Source: Malania oleifera
Lineage: Eukaryota > Streptophyta > Magnoliopsida > Santalales > Ximeniaceae
Length of the DNA stretch: 64,000 nt
Direction: 5' to 3'
NCBI RefSeq assembly: GCF_029873635.1
Contig: NC_080425.1
Location: 39,187,390 to 39,251,389 of the forward strand
How positions within the stretch are numbered: the first letter of the stretch is position 1; every line of letters starts with the position of its first letter. Positions 6,601-52,372 of this stretch are shown piece after piece. The notes under the pieces were generated by a model. The model ran no database searches and was not told where the DNA came from. It saw only the letters and a program-made list of their open reading frames with translations. The position numbers were made by a program, and so were the translations under genes.

Positions 6601-7640
6601 GAAGTGGGAACATATTTCTATGGATTTCGTCACAGGGTTACTATCAGCACTTCAAGGACATGACGCCATCTGGGTAGTCATTAAGTGATTAATGAAGACT
6701 GCCCATTTTCCTCTAATCAAAGTTAACTACTTTATAAGTAGTTTGGGAGAGATGTACACGCAGGAGAGAGTTAGACTATATGGCATGCCAGTGTCCATCG
6801 TATCTGATCCGGACCCACAATTCATGTCACAATTTTGGAAGAGTTTACAAGGAGCCGTGGGTTCTCAGTTGACAATCAATACAACATTTCATCCTCAAAC
6901 TGATGGACAGACAAAGAGGACTATACATATATTAGAAGATATGCTGCGGGCCTATGTTTTGGATATTGGTGGTAGTTGGATCTAGTATATGCCACTGGTT
7001 GATTTTTCTTATAAAAATAGCTACCAGACAAGTATTGGGATGGCACCGTATGAAGCATTGTATGGTCGTAGGTGCCGATCTTTGTTATCCTGATAGGAGA
7101 CTGGTTAAAGACAGATTATGGGGCCAAAGATTGTTCAACATACTTCTAAGAAAATCAGACTCATTTGAGACAGAATCAAAGCAGCTCAAAGTTGATAGAA
7201 AAATAATGCAGACACTCGCCAACAAGAGTTGGAGTTTGGCGTAGGAGATCACGGGTTCTTGAGAGTTGCACCAATGAAAGGAGTGATGAGATTTGGGAAG
7301 AAAGGTAAGCTGAGCCCTAGGTATATTGGGTCGTTTGAGATACTGGAAAGAGTTGGTCCAGTTGCCTACAGGGTGGCATTACCCAGCTCTATCTAGGATC
7401 TATGACGTATTCCACGTGTCTATGTTTATGAAGTACGTCCCAGATCCTTTACACGTGATCAATTATGAATCACTGGAACTCCAAGATACCCTATCATATC
7501 AAGAGGTGCCAGTTCAGATTCTGGACCGAAGGAACAGGAATTACGCACTAAAAGGATCCCATTGGTAAAAGCACTCTGGCGCAATCACGCAGTCGAGGAA
7601 GTTTCATGAGAGTTAGAGGATAAAATGCGTTAGAGATATC
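6601..7640 (+). pseudogene. Integrase core to chromodomain, array unit U0
   Basis: Starts inside integrase (KWEHISMDF-like, lost to the M1 LTR at 6600) with the first catalytic Asp region, then VSIVSDPDPQF (second Asp region) and HPQTDGQTKRTIHILEDM (catalytic Glu region), YEALYGRRC, the C-terminal barrel (GKLSPRYIGSFEILERVGPVAYRVALP) read over a frame change, HVSMFMKYVPDP, and a degraded chromodomain (EVPVQILDRR...). The frame is broken by a CAG-to-TAG stop at GGSWI*YMP (6982-6984) and several slips. A ~104-bp stretch present in the other units is missing at about 7650. Confidence 0.85.
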
Positions 7641-7830
7641 CACAGGTGTTCTAGGTTATGAAGGGTTTTGGGAGAGTTTTATTTTTATGTGATTGATTGT
7701 AATCTCCTAAGATCTCTATTGTAACCACGGTATTCCTTCGCCATGAGTGAAGGTAATTAGTAAAGATTCAGTGGTTTGTTTTTCAGTTGGTGATATAAGT
7801 GATGATTAACAAATTTTGAGGAAGAAATTT

Positions 7831-7847
7831 TTATAAGGAGGGGAGGA
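7831..7847 (+). promoter_or_regulatory. Polypurine tract before U1
   Basis: TTATAAGGAGGGGAGGA immediately precedes the LTR start TGTAGAGACC at 7848, as in a 3' purine tract used for plus-strand priming. Equivalent tracts occur before U2, U3 and U4 (about 41075-41091, 45650-45666, 50492-50508). Confidence 0.75.
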
Positions 7848-8620
7848 TGTAGAGACCCGAAAAAGGAAAAAAAAATAATAAATAATGAAAATGGTAAAGA
7901 AAAGGAGAGAAGTGGGTTTGGCACATGCCAAACCGTTGACGATTTTCTGAGCTTTGGAAAAATCGTTGACGGTTTTGAGTTACCGAGGCTCAGTGAGGGT
8001 TAAATGGTAAAAATCAAGTTGGTTAAAAACCACACCATTGATGGTTTCAGGAAAACCATCGACGGTTTTGTCTGGGATAGTGGCTTATAAATAGGGCAGC
8101 AGCTCATTTTGTTTGGGATTTTAATCACTCTCTCTCTCCTCTCGCCTAGGGTTGCAAAGCTCTGCTTCTCTCTCTTCAATTTCTGTCAAACAATTTGCCT
8201 GATTGATAGTCAAACGCCATTTCTAAGGACTAATAATGACCCTCGTCAATTTAAGCGGATTAGATTAGCCGTTTGGGGGTCTTACGCACCACTCCAAAGT
8301 TAAGGTAAGGAGAATGAATAATGTAAGTTGTATTTAAAGATTAACTGGTTAAACTGAGATACGAGAACCTAGGAATGTTATAAGGGTAGTTATCTCGAAA
8401 TTAAATTGATTAAACTAAGGTATATGAATATAGGGTTTTGAACGAACGGTGCAGGCACTATTTTAGGATCGTTGCAGGCATTTCTCCAAAAATCATGTAA
8501 AGGGAATAAATTATGTCAGGCATTTTGGAAATTAATTGATTAATTTAAAGCATGAGAATATGAAAATATGTATATGATTTCCTGATGTATCAGGCATTTG
8601 AAAAATACTGGTTTAGATTA
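7848..8620 (+). repeat. Truncated LTR segment of array unit U1
   Basis: The segment begins TGTAGAGACCCG and carries four palindromic boxes, a TATA box (TTATAAATAGGG near 8085-8097), a CT-rich leader, and an AGGTAAGG sequence. It ends about 750 bp in, before the minisatellite and GGTGAGACACC block found in the complete LTRs, and is fused to integrase sequence. It is therefore only the 5' third of an LTR. Confidence 0.8.
7928..8097 (+). promoter_or_regulatory. Promoter-like cluster in U1: four ACCGTCGACGGT-type boxes plus TATA
   Basis: Boxes ACCGTTGACGATTTT, ATCGTTGACGGTTTT, ACCATTGATGGTTT and ACCATCGACGGTTTT precede TTATAAATAGGG. The same four positions are occupied in U2 (41175-41315), U3 (45748-45900) and U4 (50590-50735). 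Differences between copies are mostly CG to TG or CA. U2 has lost the TATA sequence (TTCTAAATAAGG). Confidence 0.6.
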
Positions 8621-9112
8621 TCATATATTTTTCTAGGCAATTATAATATTATGGAATATTTACAAGAGTTCTTTTGGTGGAGTAAATGAAGATGGAAACT
8701 ACCAGATACGTGGAGCAGTGTTTGAGATGCCAGTAGGTTAAAGCTAAGCATCAATGACTGGCGTGACCATTGCAACCACTTCATATCCTTGAATGAAAGT
8801 GGAACATATTACTATGGATTTCGTCGTAGGGTTACCACCGACACTTCATAGACAGGACGCCATCTGGGTAGTCGTTGACTGATTAACGAAGATTGCCCAT
8901 TTTCTTCCAATCAGAGTTAACTACTCTATGAGTAGATTGACAAAGATATATAGGCAGGAGATAGTTAGATTGCATGGAGTGCCAGTGTTTATTGTATCTT
9001 ATCGGGACCCATGGTTCACATCACAATTCTAGAAGAGTTTACAAGGAGCCTTATGTTCTCAGCTGACATTTAGTACAACATTTCATCCTTAGACCGATGG
9101 ACATACAAAGAG
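8620..9112 (+). pseudogene. Integrase N-terminal half, array unit U1
   Basis: Follows the shared LTR/pol junction. Recognisable are the FFWW segment, the zinc-finger CLRCQ, WEHITMDF with the first catalytic Asp, and PWFTSQF, ending at the DGHTKS-like segment, where M2 inserted (TSD AAGAG left copy at 9108-9112). Stops are frequent (for example after VVD and in the KSLQG region). The unit continues at 40116 after the M2 complex. Confidence 0.8.
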
Positions 9113-11265
9113 TGTAATGACCTCAAAATTACTGCCATTATATATATATATATATATATATATATACTATTACTCTAATACCCATAATACTATTCACTAT
9201 AACATCTCGGACCCAAAGTGGTACCGAGGATACCTGTTCACAACATATACCACCTAAGCAGCAAAACACATAAAAATGCATTAACCTTGTTTATAATACC
9301 AGAGTTTCAATATTTCTAAAAATATACATATACATCTCTCAAAAGAAACACAATGCCCTAAGTGGATACCCAAAAATACAACTCCCCAACTCAAAATTTA
9401 CCCTGCAACTAGGGCAACACAAAAGTCCTCTCTATCTCTGAGCACGCTCCACACTCCTATCTGGATCACCTAAAATATTTGGAATGTTGGGGTGAGACAC
9501 CTCTCAGTAAGACGGAATAAATTATAGCCAGTGTGTGGTAAATGAGTTATACATGAATTGCATAATTAATAACTCAACTATGTCGGGTAACATTTCAATA
9601 TACAACATATCATGACTCACACCTACACCTTTTAAAATAAACTTTCTATTTGAACATACTTATAACTATGATAGGTAGTTTATGTTCTCTGTAAAAATAT
9701 ATACATATATTTATATAATTGTGAAAGCTTCCCTGAATTGATACCTGTATGCATGATTTAACCCCACATGCTTGAGTTGTGCGGCCCGTGGGCGGGACTT
9801 AACACTGGCTGGCCTACTAGGCTAAGCAAACTATAACCTCTGTAGTACGATTGGTCTCCTCAACCTGGACCGTCTACCAAGGAACCTACGTCTCTCCTCT
9901 AGGCACAATCGACTGTTCATTTCCACACTCTATCTGAGATGTGTGGTTGCACTCTATACTATGATAGCTACGGTACCATGCTCTGTAATCTGTACTGGTC
10001 CATCAGGGATCTGATACTATGTAATACTATGTCTATATATTACTGTTTTACCATAATTCTGTATAAACTGTAGTATCTGTAAATCATTACTCTGTAATGA
10101 CTGTATATCATGGTTCTACAAAAGCTATGTACAATCATGGTTCTGTAAAAACTATAAATAATCATGGTACTATAAAGACTGTACAAAATTTTGTATTAAA
10201 TCTCAGTACTATATTTGTTATTTCTCATGCCACACGATTTAAATAAAACTCTTTTTATAATGTATGGTAAAACTATATTTTCCTGCTATATGAAAATAAT
10301 ACATATCATTCGTAAAACTTTCCTGTAACCCAGATATCTGGATTTTCACAAATATACCACCACTGTAAAATTCAAATCCCATATCACATGCTATACTTTA
10401 ATTAATAAAATTTCTAAAATTAACCGTCGTAACTTATTCCCCTTACCAGATTATTGAGAGGCCTGCAAATACACAATACTTACGCCCGCGGCGTTCAGAA
10501 CTCTAAAATCCTGAAATCACATAACCCCAAAATAATATCACATTCACATTTTCCTCGGATCCATGTACTCCATTTAACCAAGGAAACATCAAATAATTAA
10601 TTATTTATCACTCTTATCTCATTTCCTAAGGAAATGCCCGTAGGAATCCTAAACTTAAGCTTGCGGCGTTCACATCAAAACCCTCTACTCCAAAAATCCC
10701 AATTAATCAATTCACCCCAAAATTATGCTCATATTCACATTCCTAGGCCTATATACCCGTTAAACCAATTAAAAACACCAAACAACATCATAAACAACTT
10801 CCTCACCTTAGTTTGGGATGGTGCCTGAAATCCTTAGAACACAATTTTGCTCTGGTCAAATTGAAGAGAATCGCAGCTAGGCTGTAGAAACAGAGTCTAA
10901 TTGTCGATTACGTGATTCTAAAGTGGGAAAATGAAGAGAGAAAAGGAGGGTTTTGCAACCTTCCAGAGGATAAAGAGAGAGCTTTTGAATTTTTAAAAAG
11001 AAAAATGACCTGCAGCCCTTTATAAGTATTTTGTCTCTCAAAAAAACCCTTCACAGTTTTCTTAGGCTCTCAGAAAATTGTCGCCAATTTTCTCTTTAAC
11101 CAGCCCAGTTTTCATCGTTTACCTTTTAACCAGGCCGCGGTAAAACCATATAACGATCGATGGTTTTCTTAGCTCTTCAGAAAACTGTCGTCGATTTTCT
11201 CCTCACTAGACCATTTTTCTATTTTCTTTATTTATTTTTAATATTATATCTTTTGGGTCTCTACA
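9113..11265 (-). mobile_element. 3' LTR of M2 (2.15 kb)
   Basis: Begins TGTAATGACCTC and ends GGGTCTCTACA, followed by TTCTCCCCTCCTTA, the reverse complement of a purine tract. It includes a TA microsatellite (9138-9166), the GGTGAGACACCTCTC block (9491-9511), a GTGCGGCCCGTGGGCGGGACTT-like core split here as GTGCGGCCCGTGG and GCGGGACTTAACACTGG (9780-9805), a CTGTA-rich minisatellite (10060-10190), and degenerate GTCGAC boxes at 11048-11200. The left TSD pentamer is AAGAG. Confidence 0.85.
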
Positions 11266-11701
11266 TTCTCCCCTCCTTACAAAAATCCGTCCTTGAAATT
11301 TGCTATCTATGTTATATACCAATCTCTGAGGAAAACTTGTTGTAATTTTATTAATTACCCACACTTATGGCGGAGGAATACCGTGGTTAGAAGAAAGAGT
11401 TATAGGAGACTACAATCATTTAGACAAAAAGAAAACTCTCCAAAAATCATTTATAACCTAAAACCAAAAACACTAACTATCCTACCCTATACTATACAAG
11501 TCAAAGAAATACATACACTGCTATTTATTTTATTCTACTCTTAACATCTCATCTCTGATCTCCACTGAACATATGTGGATATCGCTGGCACATCTATTCC
11601 TTTAATTTTCACGAAACCTCTTTGACTGCATCGTTGTGCCATAGCACTTTCACCAGTGGAATTTTTCTTTGTACGTAGTTCTGTTCCTTTCAATTTAGAA
11701 T
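11266..11701 (-). other. M2 purine tract and 3' untranslated stretch
   Basis: Contains the minus-strand purine tract GTAAGGAGGGGAGAA at 11266-11280, then AT-rich DNA equivalent to the region between the pol stop and the tract in the array units. Around 11580-11700 the chromodomain coding sequence is recognisable only weakly. Confidence 0.6.
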
Positions 11702-12985
11702 CTAAATAAGGACCTCTTCATAATACAAGACATCTCCAAGTTCTAGTGCCTCATAGCTAATCACGTGAAAGGGATCCGGGATGTACTTCCTTAACATTGA
11801 TACGTGGAACACGTCATGAATTTTGGATAGAATTGGCGGTAAGGCTAACTTGTAGGCAACTGAACCCACTCTTTCAACTATCTCGAATGGCCCAATGTAC
11901 CTAGGGCCCAGCTTACCCTTTCTCTTAAACCTCATCAACCCTTTCATCGGTGCAATTTTCAAAAATACATGTTATCCTGTACCAAATTCCAACTCTCGCC
12001 GACGAGTATCTACATAACTTTTCTACCGACTCTAAGTTGTTTGAATTCTATCTCTGATGAGTTAGATTTTATCTGAAGTTTGTTGAACCAACTCCAGCCC
12101 CAAAATCTGTATTTCCCCACTTTCATCCCAATACAACAAAGATCAACACCTCCTACCATATAACGCCTCATATGGTGTCATCCCAATGGTAGCCTGATAG
12201 CTGTTATTATAAGCAAATTCGACTAGTGGCATGTACTGGATCCACCTACCACCAAAATTTAATACAAAGGCTCGCAGCATATCCTCCAGTATTTGAATTG
12301 TCCCCTTTGTCTGTCCATCAGTCTGAGGATGAAAGGTCATACTAAACGTTAGCTATGTACCCATGGCTCTTTACAAACTTTTCCAAAACTACAATGTGAA
12401 CCGTGGGTCTCAATCAGAGACAATGGACACTAGCACTCCATGTAGTCTTACTATCTCCTGTATATATATCTCTGCCAACCTACTTATGGAGTAGCCAACT
12501 CTTATGGGAAGAAAGTGGGCAGTCTTTGTTAACCAGTCTACAACTACCCATATAGCATCCTGACCATGCAAAGCTGGCGGTAACCCCGTAACAAAATTTA
12601 TAGAAATATGTTCCCACTTCCACTTAAGAATGTGGAGTGGCTGTAATTTTCTCGCCAGTCTCTGGTGCTTAGCCTTTGCCTGCTGGCACATCAAGCACTG
12701 CTCTATGTACTTCGCTATCTCTTTCTTCATATTGCTTCACCAAAAGGATTCCCGATGATCCCTGTACATTTTAGTGCTTCCTAGGTGCAATGTGTACAAG
12801 GATTGATGCTCCTCCTCCAAAATGGCTATTTTAATTTCAGGATCTACAGGTAGGCACAGTATGGTAACGAACCTTAGAGCACTATCATCTGAAATAATAA
12901 AATCAGCTCCCTGTCCACTTTGTACTTTATCTCTGATCTTTACTAATTCTGTATCCTGCATCTGAGCGATCTTAATTTTCTCCAA
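11702..12985 (-). pseudogene. Integrase and C-terminal domain of Pol, M2
   Basis: Three open pieces on the minus strand: 12737-12985 (RNase H-integrase linker ending HLGSTKMYRDHRESFW), 12410-12730 (zinc finger CLMCQQ, then HISINFVTGLPPALHGQDAI, where the first catalytic Asp is replaced by Asn, DF to NF), 12143-12340 (HPQTDGQTKGTIQILEDM with the catalytic Glu region, YEALYGRRC), and 11702-11962 (GKLGPRYIGPFEIVERVG barrel and HVSMLRKYIPDPFHV). Frameshifts separate the pieces. Normal function would be insertion of the cDNA in chromatin. Confidence 0.9.
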
Positions 12986-20697: not shown

Positions 20698-21257
20698 TAT
20701 AATGACCTGAAATTTCAAGACACTTTTTTTATGTATATATATACTATAAATTACCTTACTCTGATACCCTTAAAATAACCACTAGAAAACACATATGCAG
20801 CAGAAAACATAAAATCGTGTAACCATATTTACAATACCAGAATTTAATATTTCCCCAATATATATATACACATATATACACATCTCCCCAGCATCTTCTA
20901 CTAAAACTCCTGAAACCTACCAAAAATGCATGTTTTTGACAACACTTTCCCTACAGCCAGGGAAGTATAAATAACCTCTCTACCTACGAGCCTAATCTGC
21001 TCGTCTAACTGGATCACTTGAAAAATGTTAAATTACTGGTATGAGACAACGCTCAGTAAGATGAAATATGCTACTACCAGTGTGTGACAACTAAGTTTAT
21101 ATAAATAATTTACTGATAAATAACTGAACTGAGATATCATGTAAAATATAATATTGTGTAACCCACACCTATGTGGCTTAAAATACAACTGTTTTATCTG
21201 AGCTTTCTATTTATTCATACTGCAAATATTATAATATATATGTTGTTATTCTGTAAA

Positions 21258-21304
<47 letters not shown>

Positions 21305-22238
21305 CACTGTGAAAACTATCCTGAAAATCTGTATGTCATGATTTAACCCCTTATGACAGCGTTGTGCGGCCCGTAGGCGGGACTTAACACTGGTTGGCCC
21401 ACCAAGATAAGTCAACTGATACTCTATCAATTCTGAGACCGGACTTACTGCAATCCCTGCAAAGGCTCAGTATTGGCCTCTCCCTCATCAAACCGGCCAC
21501 CTCTACCCAAAATACTGGGGAGCCTGCAATCCCTCCAAGGCATGGTTGACGGAAATCTACACACTATCTAAGATATGTGGTTGCACTCTGATCTGAAATA
21601 GCTACAATATCGTGCTCTGCTGATCAAATCTCACTGAAATAATTCATCAGAGTCTAATATTATATAATACTAATATATAATTATCTTACTATTTCATCAT
21701 GATTCCAAAATAATCATAACACTATAAATCTGATATGAAAATACTATAATATCTTACTGAAATAACTACAATATCTGATCTGTAATATGTGACTATAATA
21801 TCTGAGTGTTGTGGTTTTGAAATTCTGGAAATCATGGTATTCTGTAAATACTGTAAAATATCTATCTGTAAAATATCTGTCTGTATAATATCTGCCTGTA
21901 AAATATTTGTCTGTATATACACTATAATTTATAATTCTGTAAAATCTAGTAAAACATATTTTTATGCAAAAATACTGTAAATCGTGATATTCTAAAAAAA
22001 CTATATAAACTATGTACTGAACAAATACCCACTTAGGCCACACAATTAATAAAATTCATGTTCTGAAATCTATAAAATTATATAATTTATACCTCGTATC
22101 TTAATAAACAAATACTATAATTGACTGATAAAATTTTTGAATTTACTAGCATAACATATTTCCCTTACCTGGAAAACTAAGCTCGTCTGCTTACTTGCTA
22201 ACTTATGCCCATGGCGTTCATAATTCCATAATCCTAAA

Positions 22239-22306
<68 letters not shown>

Positions 22307-37453: not shown

Positions 37454-37497
<44 letters not shown>

Positions 37498-38838
37498 AAT
37501 ACACATCTCCCTAGCATCTTCTACTAAAAATCCTAAAACCTGCCACAAATGCATCTTTCTGACAACACTTACCCTATTGCCAAGGAAGTGTAAATAACCT
37601 CTCTACCTTCCAGCCTAATCTGCTCGTCTAACTGGATCACCAAAAAAATGTTAAATTACTAGGATGAGATAATGCTTAGTAAGATGAAATATGCTATTAC
37701 CAGTGCCTGGCAATTAAATTTATATAAATAATTTACTGATAAAAAACTGAACTAAGATATCATGTAAAATATAATACTATGCAACCCATACCTATGTGGC
37801 TTAAAATACAACTGTTTTATCTAAGCTTTCTATTTATTCATACTACAAATATTATAATATATCTGCTGTTATTTTCTAAATCTGTATATATATAAATAAC
37901 TATGAAAACTACCCTAGAAATCTGTATGTCATGATTTAACCCCTCAGGATAGGGTTGTGCGACCCATAGGTGGGAATTAACACTAGTTGGCCCACAAGGA
38001 TAAGTCAACTGATACTCTATCAATCCTCTGACCGGCCTCATTACAATCCCTCCAAAGGCTATGTACGAGCCTCTCCCTCGTCAAACCAACCACCTTTACC
38101 CAAAATACTGGGGAGCCTGCAATCCCTCCAAGGCATTGATGGAAATCCACACACTATCTGAAGTATGTGGTTGCACTCTGATATGAAATAGCTTCAGTAC
38201 CGTGCTCTACTGATCAAATCTAACTAAAATAATTCATTAGGGTCAGATATTATATAATACTAATATATAATTATCTTACTGTTTCATCATGATTCCAAAA
38301 TAAGCATAACACTGTAAATCTAATATGAAAATACTTTAATATCTTACTAAAATAGTTGCAATATCTGATCTTTAATATTTGACTGAATAAACTGTAATAT
38401 CTGAGTATTATGGTTTTGAAATTCTGGAAATCATGGTATTCTGTACATACTTTAAAATATCTATCTGTAAAATATATGTTTGTATAATATCTGTTTGTAA
38501 AATATCTGTCTATATATACACTGTAATTTATAATTCTCTAAAATCTAGTAAAACATATTTTAGTGCAAAAATACTGTAAATCATGATAATCTGAAAAAAC
38601 TATATATACTCTGTAGTGAACAAATACCTACTTAGGCCACACAATTAATAAAACTCATGTTCTAAAATCTGCAAAACTGTATAATTTATACTCTGTATCT
38701 TAATAAACAAATACTATAATTTACTGATAAAATTTCTGAATTTACTAGCATAGCATATTTCCCTTACCTAGCACTAAGCTCGTCTGCGAATTTGCTAACT
38801 TACGCCCATGGCGTTCATAATTCCATAATCTTGAAATT

Positions 38839-38902
<64 letters not shown>

Positions 38903-39313
38903 CCGTCGATCAACTGAATTTCCCAGAATAGTTTCATACTCATATTTCCTAAATTATAAACTATTTGTCATTTACTTGGGTTTTTAAGGAAAACAGCTAC
39001 TAAAAATCCTAGTCTGCCTACCGTGTATACACCCCAACCATGAATTTTACAAAATCCCAATTTCTTAATTTAACCTCATAAATACATTCACATCTAGGCT
39101 TATACCTTAAATAAATTAATAATCAATCCAAAAATACCCAAATAACACCCTTACCTCAGTTTTGGGATGGTGCCCCAAAACCCCAAATCAAAATTCTACT
39201 CTGCCTACATTGTAGAGAATCTTCCCAGGAATCCCATGGTAGTTTCTAATCATCGAAATAAGGCTTATTGGAGCAGAAATTGTAAAGAGAAGGGAGAGGG
39301 GTCATGGGTTCTG

Positions 39314-39392
<79 letters not shown>

Positions 39393-39672
39393 ATTTGATT
39401 TATTTAACAAAATGAAGCTCTCGGTTCTCTATAACTTTCAGCACTGTCCAAAAAACCGTCATCGATTTTCTATGCTTCTTAGAAAACCATCACTGATTTT
39501 CAATTAATCGGCTCCAAAATTACCATTTTACCTTTACCCGACCGCGGATAAAACCAAAAACCATCACCGATTTTCTGGCTCCTTCAGAAAACTGTCACTG
39601 GTTTTCTCCTGCCTTAGACGAAAATCCATTTTTTCCATTTTCTTTCATTATTTTATTTTTCGGGCCACTACA
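37360..39672 (-). mobile_element. 5' LTR of M3 (2.3 kb)
   Basis: Begins TGAAATGACCAC and ends TCGGGCCACTACA. It aligns by eye with 20698-22895. Microsatellites: TA 37455-37492, AC/TA 38838-38898, GA 39318-39390. Degenerate ACCGTCGACGGT boxes at 39446-39612 lie on the promoter side of the GA tract when read on the minus strand. Confidence 0.88.
39318..39390. repeat. (GA)n microsatellite, about 73 bp
   Basis: Pure AG repeat in the M3 5' LTR. The partner tract in the M3 3' LTR (22725-22749) is about 25 bp, so it has expanded or contracted since insertion. Confidence 0.95.
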
Positions 39673-39992
39673 CATAGCACCAATATACTAATTTAAGGTT
39701 CAGCCCTACCATTCAGAAACAAAATCGACAATAGTTACCATGGTTTTCCTAAAATTGTCACCCCAGGAAAATCACAGAAACCACCCCAAAGTTTCTGCCT
39801 CCAAACTGTGAGACAAAATGCTAAATTCTCATATTAATCCCTCGCAATGACTTTATCAAAATCCAAGTCCATCCTCTTCCTATCAAAATCCATTCCTATA
39901 CTCTAGTATTTTTTTCGCTGTACACTAAAGTCTACAGAATCAAGCAACCTAGGCTCTGATACCAAACTTGTAACGATCTCCAAATTACTACC

Positions 39993-40027
<35 letters not shown>

Positions 40028-40115
40028 ACTCTGATAGCCATAATACTATTCATTATAATATCTCATACCCAAAGTGGTACGAGGATACCTGTTCACAACA
40101 TATACCACCTAAGCA
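39673..40115 (-). mobile_element. Leader (second part), PBS and 147-bp 5' LTR remnant of M2
   Basis: 39673-39952 continues the M2 leader. GCTCTGATACCA at 39953-39964 is the exact reverse complement of the TGGTATCAGAGC PBS. 39969-40115 matches the first ~145 bp of the M2 3' LTR (9113 onward), including a TA microsatellite (39993-40022), then stops at CACCTAAGCA and passes into array unit U1 integrase. About 2 kb of this LTR is deleted. Confidence 0.88.
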
Positions 40116-40800
40116 ATTGGATTTAGTATATGCCACTGGTTGAGTTTTCTTATAACAACTACCAGGACAGTATTGGGATGACACCATACAGCATTGTATG
40201 GTCACATGTGTCGATCTCTGTTATACTGGGACGAAACTGGTGAAAGACAGATTATGGGGCTAGAGATTTTTCAACTAACTTCTAAGAAAATTAGACTTAT
40301 TCGAGACAGAATCAAAGCTGCTCAAGTCGACAGAAAAATTATGTAGACACTCACCAACGAGAGCTGGATTTTGGTGTAGGAGTCAAGTGTACTTGAGAGT
40401 TGCACCAATGAAAAGAGTGATGAGATTTGGGAAGAAGGGTAAGCTAAGCCCTAGGTATATTCGGTCGTTTGAGATACTTTAAAGAATTGGTCTAGTTGCC
40501 TATGGGGTGGCAATACCTCCGGCTCTGTCTAGGGTCCATAATGTACTCCACATCTCTATGTTGAGGAAGTACATCCCAGATCCTTTGCACATGATCAGTT
40601 ATGAAACACTGGAACTCTAAGATACCCTATCATATGAAGTGATGTCAGTTAAGATTCTGGACAGAAAGGAGTAAGAATTACGCACTAAAAGGATCCCATT
40701 GATAAAAGTACTTTGGCACAATCCCGCAATCAAGGAAGCTTCATGAGAGTTAGAGGATAAAATGCGTCAGAGATATCCACATCTGTTCAGTGGGACCCTG
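40116..40800 (+). pseudogene. Integrase C-terminal half and chromodomain, array unit U1
   Basis: Resumes at TTGGATTTAG (Gln codon now TAG), YMPLVEFSYNN, then the GKLSPRYIRSF barrel, the LRKYIPDP segment and ELRTKRIPLIKV of the chromodomain, with several stops. The 3' untranslated part up to the purine tract before 41092 is complete, including the ~104 bp missing from U0. Confidence 0.82.
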
Positions 40801-41091
40801 CGTTGAACTGATAAAAGTAAAGGTAAATAATTGTTTTTTACTTTTGTCATGTACATTGTAAGGTAGTTGGTTATAAGTTAGTGTTTTTGGTTCTAGGTTA
40901 TGAAGGGTTTTGGGAGAGTTTTCTTTTTATGTGATTGATTGTAATCTCCCAGGACTTTTATTGTAACCACAGTATTCCTTTGTCATAAGTGAGGGTAATT
41001 AATAAAGATTTGGTGATTTGTTTTTCAGTTGGTGATATAAGTGATGATTAATAAATTTTTGGAGGACGAAATTTTTATAAGGATGGGAGGA

Positions 41092-41820
41092 AGTAAAGAC
41101 CTAGAAAAGAGGAAAAAATAATAATAAATAATGAAAATGGTCAAAAAATGAGGAGAATAGGTTTGGCACAGGCCAAACCGTTGATGGTTTTCTAAGCTTA
41201 GGAAAAATCGTTGACGGTTTTGAGTTACCGAGGCTCTGTAAGTATTAAATGGTGAAAATTAGGTTGGTTAAAAACCAAACCGTCGACGGTTTCAAGAAAA
41301 CCGTCAACTATTTTTTATGGGATAGTGGCTTCTAAATAAGGCACCAACTCATTTTGTTTGGGATTTTAATCACTTTCTCTCTCCTCTCTCCTAGGGTTGT
41401 GAAGCTCTGCTTCTTTCTCTTCAATTTCTATCAAACCATTTGCTTGATTGACGATTAAACGCCATTTCTAAGGCCTAGCAGTGACCTTCGTCAATTTAAT
41501 TGGAGTAGATTAGCCGTTTGGGGGTCCTAGGCACCACTTTGAAGTTGAGGTAAGGAGAATGAATAATGTATGTTGTTTTTAAAGATTATGACTAAGCTGA
41601 GATATGGGAGCCTAGGAATGTTATGGGGGCAGTTATCCCAAAATTAAATTGATTAAACTAAGGTATATAAATACAGGGTTTTGTACGAACGCCGCAGGCA
41701 CTATTTTAGGATCCTTGCGAGCATTTCTTCAAGAATCAGGTAAGGGGAATAAATTATGCCTGACATTTTGGAAAGTAACTGATTAATTTAAAGCATGAGA
41801 ATATGAAAATATTGTATATG
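41092..41820 (+). repeat. Truncated LTR segment of array unit U2
   Basis: Starts AGTAAAGACC (TG decayed to AG). Palindrome boxes at 41178, 41207, 41278 (a perfect ACCGTCGACGGTTT) and 41299; the TATA sequence is mutated to TTCTAAATAA. It ends at the shared junction with pol near 41830-41880. Confidence 0.8.
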
Positions 41821-41825
41821 ATTTC

Positions 41826-42170
41826 TTGATGTATCAGGAATTTGAAAAACACTGGTTTGGATTATCATATATTTTTCTAGGCAATTATAATACTATAGAA
41901 TATTTACGGGAGATCTTTTGGTGGAGTAATATGAAGAAGGAAATTGTTGGACACGTGGAGCAGTGTTTGAGATGCCAGCGGGTTAAAGCTAAGCATCAGA
42001 GACCGACAAAACCATTGATACCACTTCACATCCCTGAATGGAAGTGGGAACATATTTCTATGGATTTCATCACAAGATTATCGCCGACACTTCATGGACA
42101 AAATGCCATCTGGGTAGTCGTTGACCAATTGATGAAGACGGCCCATTTTCTTCTAATCAGAGTTAACTAC
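41826..42170 (+). pseudogene. Integrase N-terminal half, array unit U2
   Basis: The longest open integrase piece in the array. From the junction it reads YLREIFWWSNMKKEIV, zinc finger CLRCQ, PLHIPEWKWEHISMDFITR (first catalytic Asp), then LHGQNAIWVVVDQL. It is interrupted at the NYS position by solo LTR D, into which a longer open frame continues spuriously. The N-terminal residues before YLRE derive from LTR and junction sequence, not from integrase. Confidence 0.88.
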
Positions 42171-44435
42171 TGCAGAGACCCGGAAGATTTAAAATATGAA
42201 ATTAAAGAAGGAAAGGAAATTTTCAAGAGTAATTCATATGGCTTCGTCGTCGATTGCCCTGGACTCGTCAACGAACTGCCTTCTGTGACTTGTCGACGAG
42301 GACACGTGTCTTATCGATGAAGAGCTACCGAGAGGGGAAAATTTTAGACCTTTGGTTCGTTGATGAACTCATTACCGTCGTCAACAAACTCCCTTCATAC
42401 GTTCATTGACGAGTCCACGTATCTCTTCAATGAAGCCACATGGCTAGCCACCTATATATACACAAAAAGTTGGATTTTGGCGAAAGAAAACAGTCTCTTC
42501 TCTCTCTCTCTCTAGAATTTAGTTCCCCTCACTTCTCTCTACGATTTCGGCCCCGATTTTCCCTATTTTGACGATCAGAAGTTACCACGATGATCCTGGG
42601 GAAATTCTCTACAACTTAGCCGCAGCAGCATTTTGGTTTGAGAAGTTCAGGCACCATCCCAAAATCAGGGTAAGTTGGTTATTTTAGAATTTTCTTCGTT
42701 ATCAGGCTTTTCTGAACTCAGATCTTGTGTTAGATGAAATTATACTGAAGTTTGAGTTGATTAAACTAGGGTGTTGTGATTTCAGAGTTTGAGTTTCCAA
42801 ACACCACAGGCATGGGTTGAGGATCCCAGTGGGTGTTTTCTTGAGATCTCAGGTAACATTGATAAAAATTAGTAGTTTATAATTTTATGGATAAAAGAAA
42901 TATGTGAGCTTGGCGAAAAGGCGAGTATAGTTATTGTTCTGAGTTTGGGTTGATTGAATTAGGGAATGTACATTGTTTCAGGGTATTGGAGTTTGGTACG
43001 CTGTGGGCATAAGAAAAGTGGGAGTCAGGCTTCCCAGTCAATTAGGTAAGGGAAATATGCTATGCCAATTAAATCAGAAATTTTTACTAGTAAAGTGTAG
43101 TATATATTTACTAGTTTCCAGAGTAAGAAATTATACAGTTTTATATATTATAGTTAATGAGTTTTATTTATTTGTGTGGCATGAGAAGTTTTAGTATAAA
43201 ACAGAATTCTATACAACTTTCACAGAATTATGATTACATAGTTTTATAGAATTAAGATACACAGATTATATGGTTTATTTACAAAACTATGGCTATTCAA
43301 TGTTTTAAAAAATTATGATTTACACAGTATATTCAGATATTATAGTTTATTCAGATATACAGTTTTCATAGTACCATGATATACAGATTACAAAACCATG
43401 ATAAACAGATAATACAAAACCATAACATATAGATATTACAGTTTATATAGATTAGTTTATTTCAGTGTTATGGTTAATATAGTTTTACATAATCATGGTT
43501 ATTACAGCTGAACAGAATCATAGTAAACCAATAAGATATATAGCAGTATTATATAGTATCAGACCTTGATGGATTAGATCAAATTACAGAGCATGATACC
43601 GTAGCTAATTCAGTACAGAGTGTAACCATATATTTCAGATAGTGTGTGAATTTTATGAGTAGTCGATCGTGCCTAGGGAGAGCTTGCAGACTCCCCAGTA
43701 GTCCGGGTTGAGGCGGTCGATCTAACGATAAAGGTTTCAGTTCACTTATCTTGGCAAGCGAACCAGTGTTAAGTCCCGTCTACGGGCCACACAATCCTGT
43801 CATAAGGGGTTAAATCATGACACATAACCATCCAAAGAAGTTTTCACAGTTTTATATATATAGATTTACAGAAAACAACAGTTATATTTAGAGATACTAA
43901 AACTATGACTAAATAGAAAGTTTAGAAACAATTGTATTTTAAGTCACGTAGGTGTGAGTTATATTGTATTTTATTTTACATGTTATGTAAACTCAGTTGT
44001 CACACACTGGTAATAGCATATTTCGTCTTACTGAAAGTTGTCTTATCCTAGTAATTTAACATATTACAGGTGATCCAGCTAGACGAGCAGATCAGGCTCG
44101 AAGATAGAGGGGATATTCTTGTTGCCCTGTTTATAGGGTAAGTGTTTTTTAGGGATGTATTTATTAGTAGACTCTAGATGATCTGGTGGATAATACTAGA
44201 GAGATATGTATATAAATGTTTTGTGAAATACTAAATTTTGGTATTGTAATTATGGTTGTATGATTTTATGTTTTCCGCTGCATAGGTGTGTTTTCTTATG
44301 AACAAGGATTCGTTGGTGCCCACTTTGGGACTGAGAAGTTATAGTAGATGTTATCAGAGATATCAGCATAATATGATTGTATAGCACAAAAATAATAATA
44401 ATGATAGTAATGGTAGGAATTTTTGGGTCGTTACA
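42171..44435 (+). mobile_element. Solo LTR D (2.27 kb) in array unit U2
   Basis: Begins TGCAGAGACCCGG and ends TTTTTGGGTCGTTACA; perfect TSD ACTAC (42166-42170, 44436-44440). Palindromes of CTTGTCGACGAGG type at 42238-42450, TATA-like CTATATATAC near 42461, CT tract 42497-42515, a GTACCG... block near 43598, the GGCCACACAATCC core near 43790 and the CTTACTGAAAGTTGTC block at 44027-44050. No internal region. Confidence 0.93.
42238..42475 (+). promoter_or_regulatory. Promoter-like region of LTR D: CTCGTCGACGAG boxes and TATA
   Basis: At least seven variants (TTCGTCGTCGATTG, CTCGTCAACGAAC, CTTGTCGACGAGG, CTTATCGATGAAG, TTCGTTGATGAAC, CGTCGTCAACAAAC, TTCATTGACGAGT) precede CTATATATAC and a CT-rich leader. 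Role inferred from position. Confidence 0.5.
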
Positions 44436-44440
44436 ACTAC

Positions 44441-45350
44441 TCTATGAGTAGATTGGCGGAGATGTACATGTAGAAGATAGTTAGACTGCATGGCGTGCCA
44501 GTGTTTATCGTATCTAATCGGGACCCATGGTTCACATCACAATTCTGGAAGGGTTTACAAGGAGCCTTGGGTTCTCAATTGACATTCAGTACAACATTTC
44601 ATCTTCAGATCGATGGACAGAAAGAGAGGACTATATAGATATTAGAAGATATGTTGCGGGCCTTTGTATTGGACTTTGGTGGTAGTTGGATCCAGTATAT
44701 ACCACCCGTTGAGTTTTCTTATAACAACAGCTACCAGGCCAGTATTGGGATGGCACCGTACAAAGCATTGTATGGTCATAGGTGCTAATCTCTGTTAAAA
44801 TGGGACAAGACTAGTGAAAGACAGATTATGGGGCCAGAGATTGTTCAACAAACTTTTGAGAAAATCAGACTCATTCGAGACAGAATCAAAGCAGCTCAGA
44901 GTCGACAAAAAAGTTATGCAGAAACTTGCCAGTGAGAGCTGGAGTTTGGTGTAGGAGATCACGTGTTCTTAGGAGTTGCACCAAGGAAAGGAGTTATGAG
45001 ATTAGGGAAGACGGGCAAGTTGAGCCCTAGGTATATTGATTCGTTTGAGATACTCGAAAGAATTAGTCGAGTTGCCTACAAGGTGGCAGTACCTATGGCT
45101 CTATCAAGGATCCATGACGTATTCCACGTGTCTATGTTGAGGAAGTATGTCCCAAATCCTTCGCACATGATCAGTTATGAATCACTAGAACTCCAAGATA
45201 CCCAATCATATGAAGAGGTGTCGATTCAGATTCTGGATCGGAAAGGACAGGAATTACGCACTAAAAGGATCCCATTGGTAAAAGTATTATTGCACAATCA
45301 CGCAGTCGAGGAAACTTTATAAGAGTTGGGGGGATAAAATGCCTCAAAGA
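44441..45350 (+). pseudogene. Integrase C-terminal half and chromodomain, array unit U2
   Basis: Continues from TCTATGAGTAGATTGG. It includes the second Asp region ([10 protein letters not shown], with the catalytic Asp replaced by Asn), the Glu region, the barrel and chromodomain: open segment 44963-45322 reads GKLSPRYIDSFEILERISRV, HVSMLRKYVPNP, and GQELRTKRIPLVKVLLHNH. A CAG codon is kept at the WIQY position that is TAG in U0 and U1. Confidence 0.85.
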
Positions 45351-45666
45351 TAACCACACTTGTTCTGTGTGACCCAATGTTGAACTAATAAAGGTAAAGG
45401 TAAATAATTGTTTTTGACTTTTGTCATCTACAGTGTGAGGTAGTTGGTTATAAGTTAGTGTTTTTGGTTCTAGGTTATGAACTGTTTTAGGAGAGTTTTC
45501 TTTTTATGTGATTGATTGTAATCTCCCAAGACCTCTATTGTAACGACGGTATTCCTTTTTCATAAGTGAGGGCAATTAATAAAGATTTGGTGGTTTGTTT
45601 TTTAATTGATGATATAAGTGATGATTAACAAATTTCGAGCACGAAATTTTTTTAAGAAGGGGAGGA

Positions 45667-46420
45667 TGTAGAGACCCAAAAAAGGAAAAAAAATAAAAAT
45701 AAATAATGAAAATGGTAAAGAAAAAGAGGGAAGTGGGTTTGGCACAGGCCAAACCGACGACGGTTTTCTGAGCTCAGGAAAAATCGTCGATGATTTTGAA
45801 TTACTTGACCCTCAGTAAGGGTCAAACGGTAAAAATCAAGTTGGTTAAAAACAAAACCATCAACGGTTTCAAAAAAATCGCCAACAGTTTTGTCTGGGAC
45901 AGTGGCTTATAAATGGGGCAGTAGCACATTTTGTTTGGGATTTTAATCACTCTCTCTCTCTCTTTCCTCCTCCTAGGATTGCGAAGCTTTGCTTCTCTCT
46001 TTTCAATTTTTTTCAAAACCATTTGCTTGATTGAAGATCAGATGCCATTTCTAAGGCTTAGCAGCGATCCTCACCAATTTAATCGGAGTATATTAGCGGT
46101 TTGGAGGTCCTAGGCTCCACTCCAAAGTTAAGGTAAGGAGAATGAATATTGTAAGTTGTTTTTAAAGATTAATTGGTTAAACTAAGATACGAGAACCTAG
46201 GAATGTTATAGGGGTAGTTATCCCAAAATAAAACTGATTAAACTAAGGTATATGAATATAGGGTTTTGTATGAAGGCCGCGGGCACTGTTTTAGGATCCT
46301 TGTAGGCATTTCTCTAGAAATCAGGTAAAGGGAATGAATTATGTTAGGCATTTTGGAAATTAACTAATTAATTTAAAGCATGAGAATATGAAAATATTGT
46401 ATATGATTTCCTAAAGTATC
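45667..46420 (+). repeat. Truncated LTR segment of array unit U3
   Basis: Starts TGTAGAGACCC. Boxes ACCGACGACGGTTTT, ATCGTCGATGATTTT, ACCATCAACGGTTT and ATCGCCAACAGTTTT; TATA-like TTATAAATGGGG near 45907. CT tract near 45948-45965. Joins pol at 46430-46460. Confidence 0.8.
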
Positions 46421-46439
46421 AGGCATTTGAAAAATACTA

Positions 46440-46952
46440 GTTTGGATTATCATATATTTTTCTAGGCAATTATAATATTATGGAATATTTACGGGAGTTC
46501 TTTTGGTGAAATAATATGAAGAAGGAAATTATTGGATACGTGGAGCAGTGTTTGAGATGCCTATAGGTTAAAGCTGAGCATTAGAGACCGGCGAGACCAT
46601 TGCAACCACTTCACATCCCTGAATGGAAGTGGCAACATATTTCTATTGATTTCGTCACACAGTTACCGCTGGCACTTCATGGACAGTACGCCATCTGGGT
46701 AGTCGTTGACTGATTGACAAAGACTGCCCATTTTCTTCCAATCAGAGTTAACTACTCTATGAGTAGATTGGTAAAGATATACATGCAAGAGATAGTTAGA
46801 CTGCATGGTGCGCCAGTGTCCACCGTATCTGATCAGGACCCACGGTTCACATCATAATTCTGAAAGAGTTTACAAGGAGCCTTGGGTTCTCAATTGACAT
46901 TTAGTACAATATTTCATCCTCAAACAAATGGACGGACAGAAAGGACTACACA
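46440..46952 (+). pseudogene. Integrase N-terminal half, array unit U3
   Basis: Shows YLREFFWW, KKEIIGYVEQCLRC, HISIDFVTQLPLALHGQ (first Asp), the DQDPRF region (second Asp) and HPQTNGRTERT, cut at the TSD by a solo LTR. Stops occur after VVVD and in the SQF region. Confidence 0.84.
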
Positions 46953-49480
46953 TAGAATGCCCCAAGCCTCTAAGTGGGCCCGGAGTGCTACTAATCCATT
47001 TATTTACCTGATAATCCACATTCCAATGTCATGTACGCAGCGAAAAACATAAATATAATCTCCCAAAAATATAATACCAGAGTTTTCTAAATCTATCTAC
47101 CAATCATAATAAATTAATCATCCACCTGTATTCAAATATATACATATCTACAAAAACATAACCTACACGTCTAGTATTCACCACACCAGTATGTTTCACA
47201 TCCATTCGTAAAATCTAGAAGACTTAAAACATAGAACAAAAAAACATGAATTTATACATCACAAAATTAACATTAAAATATACCATTTTCACATTTTATT
47301 TCCCAAAAATGGTATAAAATATCGAGCTCTCTAAGCTCGATCTCAAGGAAATCCTAAAAAAGATAAATTCATATTCAGGTGAGACACATCTCGATAAGGG
47401 AAGAAATAATATATTAAAACAGTGTGTGACTAACATGAGGTTCATAAATATCATTTTAATAAAATTTGCAAAATGTTATCATAAACACTAAAATCATTCT
47501 GTGAATCAAACACATGCAAAATATTTAACCCCACGAGATTACCCAAGGATAAGGGTGATTACCCGCCCATACAAGTAGCACCCCTCTGCTCTGATACATT
47601 TGGCAACCTAAGGGTCGCTACTGACACATACCGAGGCACTCACCTTACTCAGTAAGCCCTAGAGTATTAGATTGATCACGTACTCACACAGTTCAAACAA
47701 AGGTTTACCAATGAAGGCCCCAAGGATAGGGAAATCTACCCGCCCATGCAACTAGGTTCCCTCTGCCCTATTACATTATGCAACTACTGCCACATCTGAA
47801 GTTACTAGAGCACTCACCTTTCTCAGTAAACCCTCAGGCGAAGAGTACGCCTCACCCAATCATAACATGTTCTACAAGTATAGATACTTCTAGTATCATA
47901 ATACATTGTTCTTTCTGTTATTATTCAACCATTCACCTACATTCATGTTCATAACTTTAACATTTCATTTCATTTCACTTTAAGTGACTCTTTTCCATTT
48001 TACATTGTTCACATTTCACATTTCACATTTCACACTTCACACTTCATTTTCATTTCATTCATTTCTATTTTCATTTCATTTCGTTATATACCGAGCATCT
48101 TTCAGCTTTTTTACCCAGCATCTTTCAGCTGTTTTACCCAACATCTTTCAGCTATTTTACCCAATATTTTTCAGCTATTTTACCCAACATCTTTCAGCTC
48201 TTTTACCCAACATCTTTAAGTTGTTTTACCCAGCATATTTCGCTGTTTACATGGTTGCATTAACACATACGAGTAGCACAGTTCATATCATATTTCATTT
48301 TCAATGCAGTACTTACTTAACCTGCATCTCATACATTTAACATATATTTGCGCAAAACTTACATTTACTCATGCCACACAATTTAGTAATAAAATTCATA
48401 TACTGCTTATAAAATAAGTCAACCAACATTTAATGTTTATATACTGAAATATATTTCATTTCTTATATAATTATCCTGAAAATATTTTCCACTTTCATCA
48501 GTTTATTTTCGCATATGCATGTCTAATAAACAGCCACAAACTCGAAAAAACAAAATTTAAATAGTTGGCATTTTAAACACATACCAAAACATACACACGT
48601 ATATATAACACAATTTATTTTCCATCAAATTCATAAAAATTCTGGTTTAATATATATATTTCCCCTTACATGGTTTCTTGAACTACGCCAACAAGGACCC
48701 CAAAAAATACCTACGGCGCTCACCCGAGCCCTCAATCAAAAATCCTAATTTCATTAAATTAACCCTAAATAAAATATTATTTTAATATTTTCTAAGCCCA
48801 TAAATTCTAAATAAATAATTATACCCTTAAATATAGCCAATTTACCTAATTTTTCAAATCTCACATCGCTTTGGAGTGGGGCCTAGAAAACCCCAGTTGG
48901 AAATTTACTCACATCAAAATGACAACGATCACGACTAGAACCCTGTGGTGGTGCCTGATCGTCGATTTAATAGCATATTTAACGAGAAATTAAGGATTTA
49001 GAGGAAACATACCTTTCCCCATGAGTGGTGCCTACACCGCTCCCACGATAAATCCGCCCAAGAAAAATGTCGATGGCGGAGCTAGGAACCCAACAGTACC
49101 TTCCGTCTCCCGATCAATTGAATATACGCCGAGAAATTAGGAAAGAGAGAGACGGAGACGGAGGAGTGGCGAGACGCTGGCGAGCGTTTTGCCTCTACAA
49201 TTGAGATTTGAGATTTCAATCACAAATCTCCTCCAGCAGCTTCGTAAAGAAGCCTTCTAATATATATATATATATCATTATTCCAATTTTTTTACTATCT
49301 TATTTCTTTATTTAATAATGTTTAATTAATTAATAATTACTTTTTTTTCATACAATTTCTTTTTATTTGTTTATTTAATACATTAATTTAATAATGTTTA
49401 ACTAATTAATTGATTAATAATTTTTAATTAATTAATAATGTTTTTTTATTTAATAACTCCTTTTTTTCCGAGTTATTACA
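46953..49480 (-). mobile_element. Solo LTR (2.53 kb) of the gag-only element family, minus orientation, in U3
   Basis: Left end TAGAATGCCCCAAG (TGTAA decayed), right end GAGTTATTACA; TSD ACACA (46948-46952) and ATACA (49481-49485), one change; other units confirm ATACA as the original target. It contains the reverse complement of the family blocks: GTGGGCCCGGAGTGCTACTAA, GGTGAGACACATCTCG (47379-47399), CCTTACTCAGTAAGCCC, and the 22-bp minisatellite (about seven units, 48107-48245). Confidence 0.92.
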
Positions 49481-49485
49481 ATACA

Positions 49486-50190
49486 TATATTAGAAGATAT
49501 GTCGCGGGCCTATGTATTGGACTTTGGTGGTAGTTGGATCCCATATATGCCACTGGTTGAGTTTTCTTATAACAACAGCTATCAGACCAGTATTGGGATG
49601 GCATCGTATGAAGCATTGTATGGTCACAGGGGCTGATCTCTGTTATACTGGGACAAGACTGGTGAAAGACAGATTATGGGGCCAAAAATTGTTCAACAGG
49701 CTTCTGAGAAAATCAGACTCATTCGAGATAGAATCAAAGCAGTTCAGAGTCGACAGAAAAGTTATGTAGACACTCGCCAGCTAGAGCTGGAGTTTGGTGT
49801 AAGAGATCACGTGTTCTTGAGAGTTGCACCAAAGAAATGAGTGATGAGATTTTGGAAGACGGGTAAGCTAAGCCCTAGGTATATTGGGTCGTTTGAGATA
49901 TTGGAAAGAATTGGTCTAGTTGCCTACAGGGTGGCATTACCTCTAGCTCTGTCTAGGATCTATGACATATTCCACATAATGCTGAGGAAGCACATCCAAG
50001 ATCCTTCACATGTGATCAGTTATGAATCACTGGAACTTCAAGAACCCTATCATATGAAGAGGTGCCAATTCAGATTCTGGACCGAAAGGAATAGGATTTA
50101 TGCACTAAAAGGATCCCATTGGTAAAAGTATTATGGCGTAATCACACAGTCGAGGAAACTTCATGAGAGTTGGGGGATAAAATGTGTTGG
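49486..50190 (+). pseudogene. Integrase C-terminal half and chromodomain, array unit U3
   Basis: From TATATTAGAAGATATG, with YMPLVEFSYNNSYQTS, a barrel segment (TGKLSPRYIGSFEILERIG), a degraded LRKHIQDPSHV and a chromodomain broken by frame changes. Several stops. Confidence 0.84.
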
Positions 50191-50508
50191 AGATATCCAC
50201 ACCTGTTCAGTGCGACCCAACGTTGAACTGAAAAAGGTAAAGGTAAATAATTGTTTTTGACTTTTGTCGTGTACAGTGTGAGGTAGTTGGTCATAAGTTA
50301 GTGTTTTTGGTCTAGGTTATGAAGGGTTCTAATAGAGTTTTCTTTTGATGTGATTGATTGTAATCTCACAAGACCTCTATTGTAACCACAGTATTCCTTT
50401 ATCATAAGTGAGGACAATTAATAAAGATTCAGTGATTTGTTTCTCAATTGGTGATATAAGTAATGATTAACACATTTCGAGGATGAAATTTTTATAAGGA
50501 GTGGAGGA

Positions 50509-51260
50509 TGTAGAGACCCGAAAAAGGAAAAATAATAATAATAAATAATGAAAATGGTAAAGAAAAAGAGGGAAGTGGGTTTGGCACAGGCCAAACCGAC
50601 AACGGTTTTCTGTGCTCAGGAAAAATAGTCGACGATTTTGAGTTATCGAGGCTCAGTAAGGGTTAAACGGTAACAATCAGGTTGGTTAAAAACCAAACCG
50701 TTGACAGTTTTAGGAAAACCATTGATGGTTTTGTCTGGGACAGTGGCTTATAAATAGGGCAGCAGCTCTTTTTTTTTTTTGGAATTTTAATCACACTCTC
50801 TCTCCTCTCTCCAAGGGCTGAGAAGCTCTGCTTCTCTCTTTTCAACTTATGTCGAACCATTTGCCTGATTGATGATCAGATGCTCTTTCTAAGGCCCAGC
50901 AGCGACCCTCATCAATTTAATTGGAGCATATTAACCGTTTGGGGGTCCTAGGCACCACTCCAAAGTTGAGGTAAGGAGAATGAATAATTCAAGTTGTTTT
51001 TAGAGATTAATCGGTTAAACTAAGATACGAGAGCCTAGGAATGTTACAGGGGTAGTTATCCCAAAATTAAACTAATTAAACTAAAGTATGTGAATACAAG
51101 GTATTGTACGAACGTCGCAAGCACTATTTTAGGACCCCAGCAGGCATTTCTCCAGAAAATAGGTAAAGGGAATAAATTATGTCAAGCATTTTGGAAATTA
51201 ACTGATTAATTTAAAGCATGAGAATATGAAAATATTGTTTATGATTTCTTGATATTTCAA
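50509..51260 (+). repeat. Truncated LTR segment of array unit U4
   Basis: Starts TGTAGAGACCCG. Boxes ACCGACAACGGTTTT, ATAGTCGACGATTTT, ACCGTTGACAGTTTT, ACCATTGATGGTTTT; TATA TTATAAATAGGG near 50749; a poly-T run at 50767-50780. Joins pol near 51290. Confidence 0.8.
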
Positions 51261-51269
51261 GAATTTGAA

Positions 51270-52372
51270 AAATACTAGTTTGGATTATCATATATTTTTT
51301 TGGGCAATTATAATATTATGGACTATTTACGAGAGTTCTTTTGGTGGAATAAGACGAAGAAGGAATTTGTTGGATACGTGGAGCAGTGTTTGAGATGCAA
51401 CTAGGTTAAAGCTGAGCATCGGAGATCAGCGGGACTTTTGCAACCACTTCACATCCCTAAATGGAAGTGGAAACATATTTCAATGGATTTCATCACATGG
51501 TTACCACTGGCACTTCATAGACAGGACGCCATCTGGGTAGTCGTTGACCGATTGACGAAGATTGCCCATTTTCTTCTAATTAGAGTTAACTACTCTATGA
51601 GTAAATTGACAGAGATATACATGTAGTAGATAGTTAGAATGCATGGCACACTAGTGTCCATCGTATTTGATCAGTACCCACGATTCACATAATAATTCTG
51701 GAAAGAGTTTATAAGGAGCCTTGGGTTCTCAGCTGGCATTCAGTACACCATTTCATCCTCAGACCGATGGATGGACAAAGAGGACTGTATAGATATTAGA
51801 AGATATGTTGCAAGCCTGTGTATTGGACTTTGGTGGTAGTTGGATCCAGTATATGCCACTGGTTGAGTTTTCTTATAACAACAGCTACTAGGCCAGTATT
51901 GGGATGGCACCGTATGAAGCATTGTATGGTTGAAGGGGCCGATCTCTGTTATACTAGGACGATATTGGTGAAAGAAAGATTATGGTGTCAGAGATTGTTC
52001 AATAGACTTATGGGAAAATCAGACTCATTCGAGACAGAATCAAAGAAGCTCAGAGTCGACAGAAAAGTTATGCAGACACTCGCTAGAGAGAGCTGGAGTT
52101 TGGTGTAGGAGATCACGTGTTCTTGAGAGTTGCACCAATGAAATGAATAATGAGATTTGGAAAGAAGGGTAATCTAAGCCCTAGGTATAGGGGGCCATTT
52201 GAGATACTAGAAAGAATTGGTCCAGTTGCCTACAAGGTGGCATTACCTCCGTCTCTGTCTAGGATCCATAATGTATTCCATGTGTCTACATTGAGGAAGT
52301 ACATCCTAGATCCTTCGCACGTGATCAGTTATGAATCACTGGAACTCCAAGATACCCTTTCATATGAAGAGG
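51270..52372 (+). pseudogene. Integrase to pre-chromodomain, array unit U4 (uninterrupted but truncated)
   Basis: The only unit whose integrase is not split by an insertion. It reads YLREFFWWNK, CLRC (Gln following), HISMDFITWLPLALHRQDAI, the second Asp region, the Glu region (DGWTKRT), SPRYRGPFEILERIG and HVSTLRKYILDPSHV, then breaks off at SYEEG (52372) where unrelated DNA begins. Stops and frameshifts are present. This is the last unit of the array in the window. Confidence 0.85.

Follow-up and report, generated by a model that had tools for sequence, protein, structure and literature searches.

The window analysed here, a 64,000-nucleotide stretch of the Malania oleifera genome (C9:39187390-39251389 in a genome of 1.49 Gb), carries a tandem array built from a fragment of a Ty3/gypsy chromovirus, in which the integrase-to-chromodomain part of the element alternates with the first part of its long terminal repeat (LTR). 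The array begins in L039, the stretch left of the window on C9 (L-numbers are labels of the genome loci compared). Self-comparison and unit comparison located collinear, plus-strand, head-to-tail copies at 6598-9112, 40117-42171, 44435-46954 and 49478-52372 with a period of 2.2-2.3 kb; identity between the copies is mostly 82-87% along stretches of hundreds to thousands of bases, a similarity far above chance, and the array is confirmed as real. Measured from junction to junction with inserts excluded, the five units are 2196, 2240, 2316, 2305 and 1045 bp long, the last being truncated, and the 10,897 bp of array DNA is spread across 58.8 kb. A preliminary description of this DNA had reported five head-to-tail plus-strand units with a period near 2.3 kb (2305/2309 bp), in agreement with the 2196-2316 bp measured for the complete units. 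The copies in the window are separated by three inserts (B, C and D), and the units are distributed as follows.

6601-8660, plus strand: unit a, with integrase core, chromodomain region, 3′ untranslated region (UTR)/polypurine tract (PPT) and, from ~7848, the first ~812 bp of the LTR
8661-9112, plus strand: unit b, first part, zinc finger to integrase core, following the junction at ~8660
40117-41904, plus strand: unit b, second part, up to the junction at ~41904
41905-42171, plus strand: unit c, first part
44436-46489, plus strand: unit c, second part, up to the junction at ~46489
46490-46952, plus strand: unit d, first part
49481-51327, plus strand: unit d, second part, up to the junction at ~51327
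51328-52372, plus strand: unit e, truncated within the chromodomain region, the right end of the array

The zinc finger of unit a lies at L039:4375-4515, left of a further insert (A), and this unit lacks ~100 bp near 7650 that are present in the others. The order within the unit is integrase zinc finger (Integrase_H2C2, E value 2e-9, piece 41799-42170), catalytic core (match to Ty3 Gag-Pol chain 7q5b, E value 4.6e-8, piece 6689-6982), SH3-like region (SH3_Tf2-1, E value 4e-23, piece 44936-45319), chromodomain stretch, 3′ UTR containing a purine tract, and LTR bases 1 to ~812. The Pfam Chromo model gave no match in the unit pieces and matched the relative L029 with an E value of 0.0013, below the Pfam cut-off. 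Integrase is followed by a chromodomain region, as in Ty3/gypsy chromoviruses, and the family may be of the Tekay lineage; the unit holds no reverse transcriptase by which to place it. In a dispersed relative on C3 (L006), the zinc finger, integrase core, chromodomain region, 3′ UTR and LTR are contiguous and in the same order, with ordinary pol upstream of the zinc finger, so the unit order is a cyclic shift of the 3′ half of a normal element. The earlier claim that a normal element cannot give this order therefore does not hold; the sole novelty is the LTR-to-zinc-finger join, obtainable by one deletion. A 124-amino-acid open frame (41799-42170) spans this join at unit c. Each unit had also been proposed as a possible small transcription unit, to which TATA-like words, found in three of the four in-window LTR pieces (with up to one mismatch) and in the LTR piece outside the window, lend weak support; the reading frames, however, are broken in every unit, and the array has no likely function.

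One base-exact junction is common to all five places and joins LTR base ~812 to the integrase zinc finger through a 3-bp overlap, ATT. The four in-window junctions, at about 8660, 41904, 46489 and 51327, all agree, and the fifth lies upstream of the window at C9:39181642-39181884. In dispersed relatives, GGAATATT is followed by ACTTAAAATTTG on the LTR side and GGGATT by TACGGGAG on the pol side, whereas in the array GGAATATT is followed by TACGGGAG. Among the aligned dispersed LTR loci, 24 of 25 run on into the usual LTR, L038 departing just beyond the breakpoint; on the pol side, 13 of 14 dispersed copies run on upstream, the remaining one (L048) not spanning the breakpoint. The LTR of the relatives extends ~1.14 kb beyond the breakpoint to a word resembling a primer-binding site (PBS), which makes the full LTR ~1.95 kb long. 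The junction is identical in all units, as the preliminary description had it, but lies 40-55 bp to the right of the positions given there, and the LTR piece measures ~812 rather than ~750 bp. The genome search for the junction that it had suggested, in which 40 of 2741 candidates were scored and very diverged arrays could thus be missed, recovered the whole junction five times, always at the array locus, while the other 35 scored candidates end at the breakpoint. These results bear out the proposal of a single chimeric founder that was then amplified, together with the statement that unit boundaries are shared and no target-site duplications (TSDs) occur between units, none being seen at the unit-to-unit junctions; 'macrosatellite', in contrast, overstates five junctions at one locus and ~10.9 kb. 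A mobile chimera was rejected as well, the junction being confined, among the scored candidates, to the array locus. Like a tandem LTR retrotransposon, the array alternates LTR with internal sequence in a single orientation and shares its LTRs, here cut at ~812 bp.

Kimura two-parameter (K2P) distances were 0.140-0.166 among units a-d and 0.146-0.183 to L006 (1675-1789 sites). For the zinc-finger part (450 bp) they were 0.153-0.183 among units b, d and e and 0.186-0.219 to L006. The near equality of the first two ranges, over 1.7 kb, and the failure of the units to form a clade would suit separate elements, inserted independently or nested, that merely look tandem. However, the same breakpoint occurs in five of five places and nowhere else among the scored candidates, the units stand head to tail with no duplication at their joins, and their zinc-finger parts are closer to each other than to L006; because of the identical junction, its confinement to this locus and the lack of duplications between units, independent insertion is scarcely credible.

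A tree of LTR sequences, built from the five units and 16 of 26 dispersed loci tried, placed the units and close dispersed copies in an unresolved star. The 26 loci were L005, L006 and L014-L038, L024 (the L006 site) being omitted; ten of them matched over no more than 600 bp and were excluded (L017, L018, L027, L028, L032, L033 and L035-L038), the out-of-window unit L007 was entered as U_m1, and L008 is the L020 place. Seven dispersed copies (L005, L006, L014, L015, L016, L020 and L026, with L021-L023 excluded as identical to L020 and L019, L025, L029, L030, L031 and L034 as more distant) show no variation at 451 LTR columns; there, derived bases were found in one unit at 84 columns, in two units at 6, in three at 1 and in four or five at 0. 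For the integrase, units a-d were compared with L005, L006, L019, L029 and L034, leaving out L024 and the 40-bp match of L036; of 503 columns without variation in four or more outgroup copies, 74, 14, 2 and 1 carried a derived base in one, two, three and all four units, respectively, and under a laxer rule (two outgroup copies, 556 columns) the numbers were 84, 15, 3 and 3. Per unit, derived bases numbered 13-29 for the LTR columns and 20-38 for those of the integrase. As a control, all 21 five-copy sets were drawn from the seven dispersed copies, with an outgroup that includes the array so that the comparison is not strictly alike: derived states in at least two copies occupied a mean of 23.0 columns (maximum 28) against 10 in the five units, those in at least three copies a mean of 2.67 (maximum 4) against 2, and those in all five 0 against 0.

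The scarcity of derived bases common to the units argues that copying ended close to the time of insertion and that most unit divergence postdates copying. Late or homogenised amplification was rejected on account of the few shared derived bases in both sets; to judge from these columns, later conversion or unequal exchange appears to have left little or no trace, with no detectable homogenisation. Star-like units as old as the spread of the family would also accord with an array built before or during integration, from a tandem reverse-transcription product or the transcript of a circular form, and landed as one insertion. This route is named as possible for tandem LTR elements in PMC11899658, and a second tandem element in the window lies between perfect CGTAG duplications. 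Early unequal recombination between near-identical LTRs, on the other hand, predicts the same pattern, and the scored candidates contained no further junction copy that a mobile product might have left behind; we hold this origin to be possible but unlikely. Likewise doubtful is the fuller proposition that a single retrotransposition-linked event delivered the complete concatemer, which then accumulated mutations with neither gene conversion nor unequal exchange; if true, the array would be a dated fossil in which the origin of tandem LTR arrays can be told apart from their subsequent homogenisation. At L054 (C10:73323000-73332999) a tandem repeat that includes an LTR of the same family is much younger, with a period of ~6.54 kb and 98.9% identity in the part read; it has four LTR copies at 6.5-kb spacing that show no difference over 811 bp.

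Four later inserts interrupt the array.

L039:4516 to window 6600: insert A, 12.1 kb, TSD GAAGT
9113-40116, no strand assigned: insert B, a composite of nested LTR elements, with an LTR start at 9113
42172-44435, no strand assigned: insert C, TSD ACTAC at 42167-42171 and 44436-44440
46953-49480, minus strand: insert D, a solo LTR of the same family as the three-LTR element at 24167-34959

The TSD of insert D (ACACA/ATACA) has one difference. No TSD was seen at the boundaries of insert B, whose right LTR is reduced to a 147-bp copy of the LTR start (39969-40115) and beside which, on the right, ~57 bp of the array are missing. The K2P distances of the insert LTR pairs, 0.080 for B (147 sites) and 0.107 and 0.131 for two parts of A, are all smaller than the unit distances, as nesting demands.

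Insert B contains a three-LTR tandem element (24167-34959) of the form LTR-gag-LTR-gag-LTR with perfect CGTAG at both sides; it comprises ~2.45-kb LTRs at 24167-26612, 28295-30818 and 32501-34959 and two ~1.68-kb internal parts, the first with a gag-like zinc-knuckle frame recognized by eye. Its LTRs differ by K2P 0.092-0.109 and its internal parts by 0.113. With its TSD, this element shows that tandem LTR arrays do form in this genome, and its position beside the array inside insert B places two tandem LTR structures in one window. Two plus-strand direct repeats of ~2.1 kb (20760-22830 and 37349-39471; 83% identity, K2P 0.119) flank it and its neighbours and may be the paired LTRs of some larger element inside insert B. 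A single minus-strand open frame at 23245-23580 fuses RT_RNaseH (E value 8e-6) directly to a chromodomain (E value 0.0002, below the Pfam cut-off) and thus represents another internal deletion in a related chromovirus, with a junction different from that of the array. Two related minus-strand chromovirus integrase regions, 68-76% identical to the units, lie at 11212-12754 (insert B) and at window -3045 to -1601 (L039; insert A).

The left end of the array, at about L039:3578-3580 (window about -6420), coincides with the LTR start, and no unit sequence lies further left. The first bases of this LTR differ slightly from those of the units, and the GAAAC directly before it is a candidate TSD whose right partner is lost. 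The right end, at 52372, is truncated in the chromodomain region. Continuation to the right was rejected, since the unit probe found no match in L040 and one 208-bp match at 67% in 52804-64000; its 66-69% matches in L055 resemble another chromovirus copy. Directly beyond the right end lie two features of a small enclosing element.

52373-52453, minus strand: probable leader and PBS-like sequence of a small enclosing LTR element
52454-52803, minus strand: 5′ LTR of the enclosing element

Its 3′ LTR, at L039:2138-2488, is 89% identical to the 5′ LTR, and CCATG duplications stand at the outer ends (L039:2133-2137 and window 52804-52808); the matching LTRs and duplications therefore place the array within a small minus-strand LTR element, at what looks by eye to be the gag end. 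A deletion probably removed the right end of the array along with the adjoining part of this element. The enclosing element might instead have captured an existing array and inserted it as cargo, as its matching TSDs and the younger appearance of its LTRs (K2P 0.119) relative to the units would allow. The 351 bp behind that distance, however, carry a wide error, the left end of the array is exactly an LTR start, as in an ordinary insertion, and no second junction copy was found among the scored candidates, which leaves capture very improbable.

A microhomology deletion followed by early unequal recombination between LTR copies in place is, in our assessment, a reasonably probable origin of the array. 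A Ty3/gypsy chromovirus with an LTR of ~1.95 kb would have inserted into the small LTR element, and a deletion at the ATT overlap would then have fused base ~812 of the 5′ LTR to the integrase zinc finger, with loss of most of pol, gag, the PBS and the remainder of that LTR. What was left, LTR(1-812)-integrase-chromodomain-PPT-LTR, would have had direct LTR repeats 2.3 kb apart; out-of-register recombination between these soon after insertion could have produced an array of at least five junctions, LTR-(integrase-LTR)n. The units then diverged independently, the array having remained fixed in number or unhomogenised; four later LTR elements landed in it, and a deletion probably removed the right end and part of the enclosing element. 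In the reverse order, tandem duplication inside a full-length element would come first and involve the stretch between the zinc finger and LTR base ~812; the 5′ LTR would then have recombined with the first internal LTR piece, eliminating gag-pol. This course yields exactly the observed left end and junction; it needs one extra step relative to deletion first, no intermediate was seen, and we consider it improbable.

Several observations weigh against a deletion followed by recombination in place. The founder is not directly visible because the right end, where a complete 3′ LTR and the second TSD would be expected, has been lost, and the locus yielded no 3′ part of the family's LTR belonging to the array. 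Nor do the units form a clade in the LTR tree (5 changes), and a single origin appears in 0% of 200 bootstrap trees, the supported branches being compatible with one. Furthermore, the distance between the LTRs of the enclosing element (351 sites) falls below that of the units inside it, though the enclosing element should be older; we read this low value as sampling error. With the right end lost, the choice of mechanism rests on economy.

The array resembles the tandem LTR retrotransposons of rice and other plants (PMC11899658) in its alternating LTR and internal sequence, its shared internal LTRs and the absence of TSDs inside. Such elements are reported to be common in plants, with the mechanism, complex insertion or later recombination, left open, and Tekay is significantly over-represented among those of rice while the overall gypsy excess is not significant. 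Their unit is an LTR plus internal region, whereas here the LTR is cut at base 812 and the internal sequence runs only from integrase to PPT; clear cases begin and end with an LTR, whereas this array opens with an LTR start and has lost its right end; and 80% have LTRs more than 95% identical, whereas the present array is much older. Another parallel is offered by maize CRM1TR and CRM4TR (PMC3648361), for which a deletion-first model much like the present one was proposed: these too are chromovirus-derived tandem repeats with one shared internal-to-LTR join, dated by nested elements. The Malania array shares such a join, probably formed by deletion in a chromovirus, but its unit extends from integrase to partial LTR rather than consisting of LTR and UTR, and the gene conversion described among the maize monomers contrasts with the near lack of shared derived bases here. 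Cassandra and other arrays of terminal-repeat retrotransposons in miniature (PMC7215508) are likewise LTR-internal-LTR arrays, attributed to LTR recombination, but consist of whole tiny elements rather than a fragment of a large one. The satellites of Lathyrus (PMC7004042) are also tandem repeats derived from a retrotransposon; they start from short 3′ UTR repeats of Ogre and can reach long arrays, in contrast to the single site with about five units here. A tandem unit combining integrase-chromodomain with a partial LTR was not found in the literature searched, subscription journals being mostly outside its reach.

Taken together, the array is one more case of a known kind, with an unusual unit and an early-burst pattern, and not a new system. 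It is a well-preserved and useful worked case: the nested inserts set a minimum age independent of the units, and the founder join, with its 3-bp overlap, and the timing are both readable at the same locus, which bears on the origin of tandem LTR arrays left open in PMC11899658.

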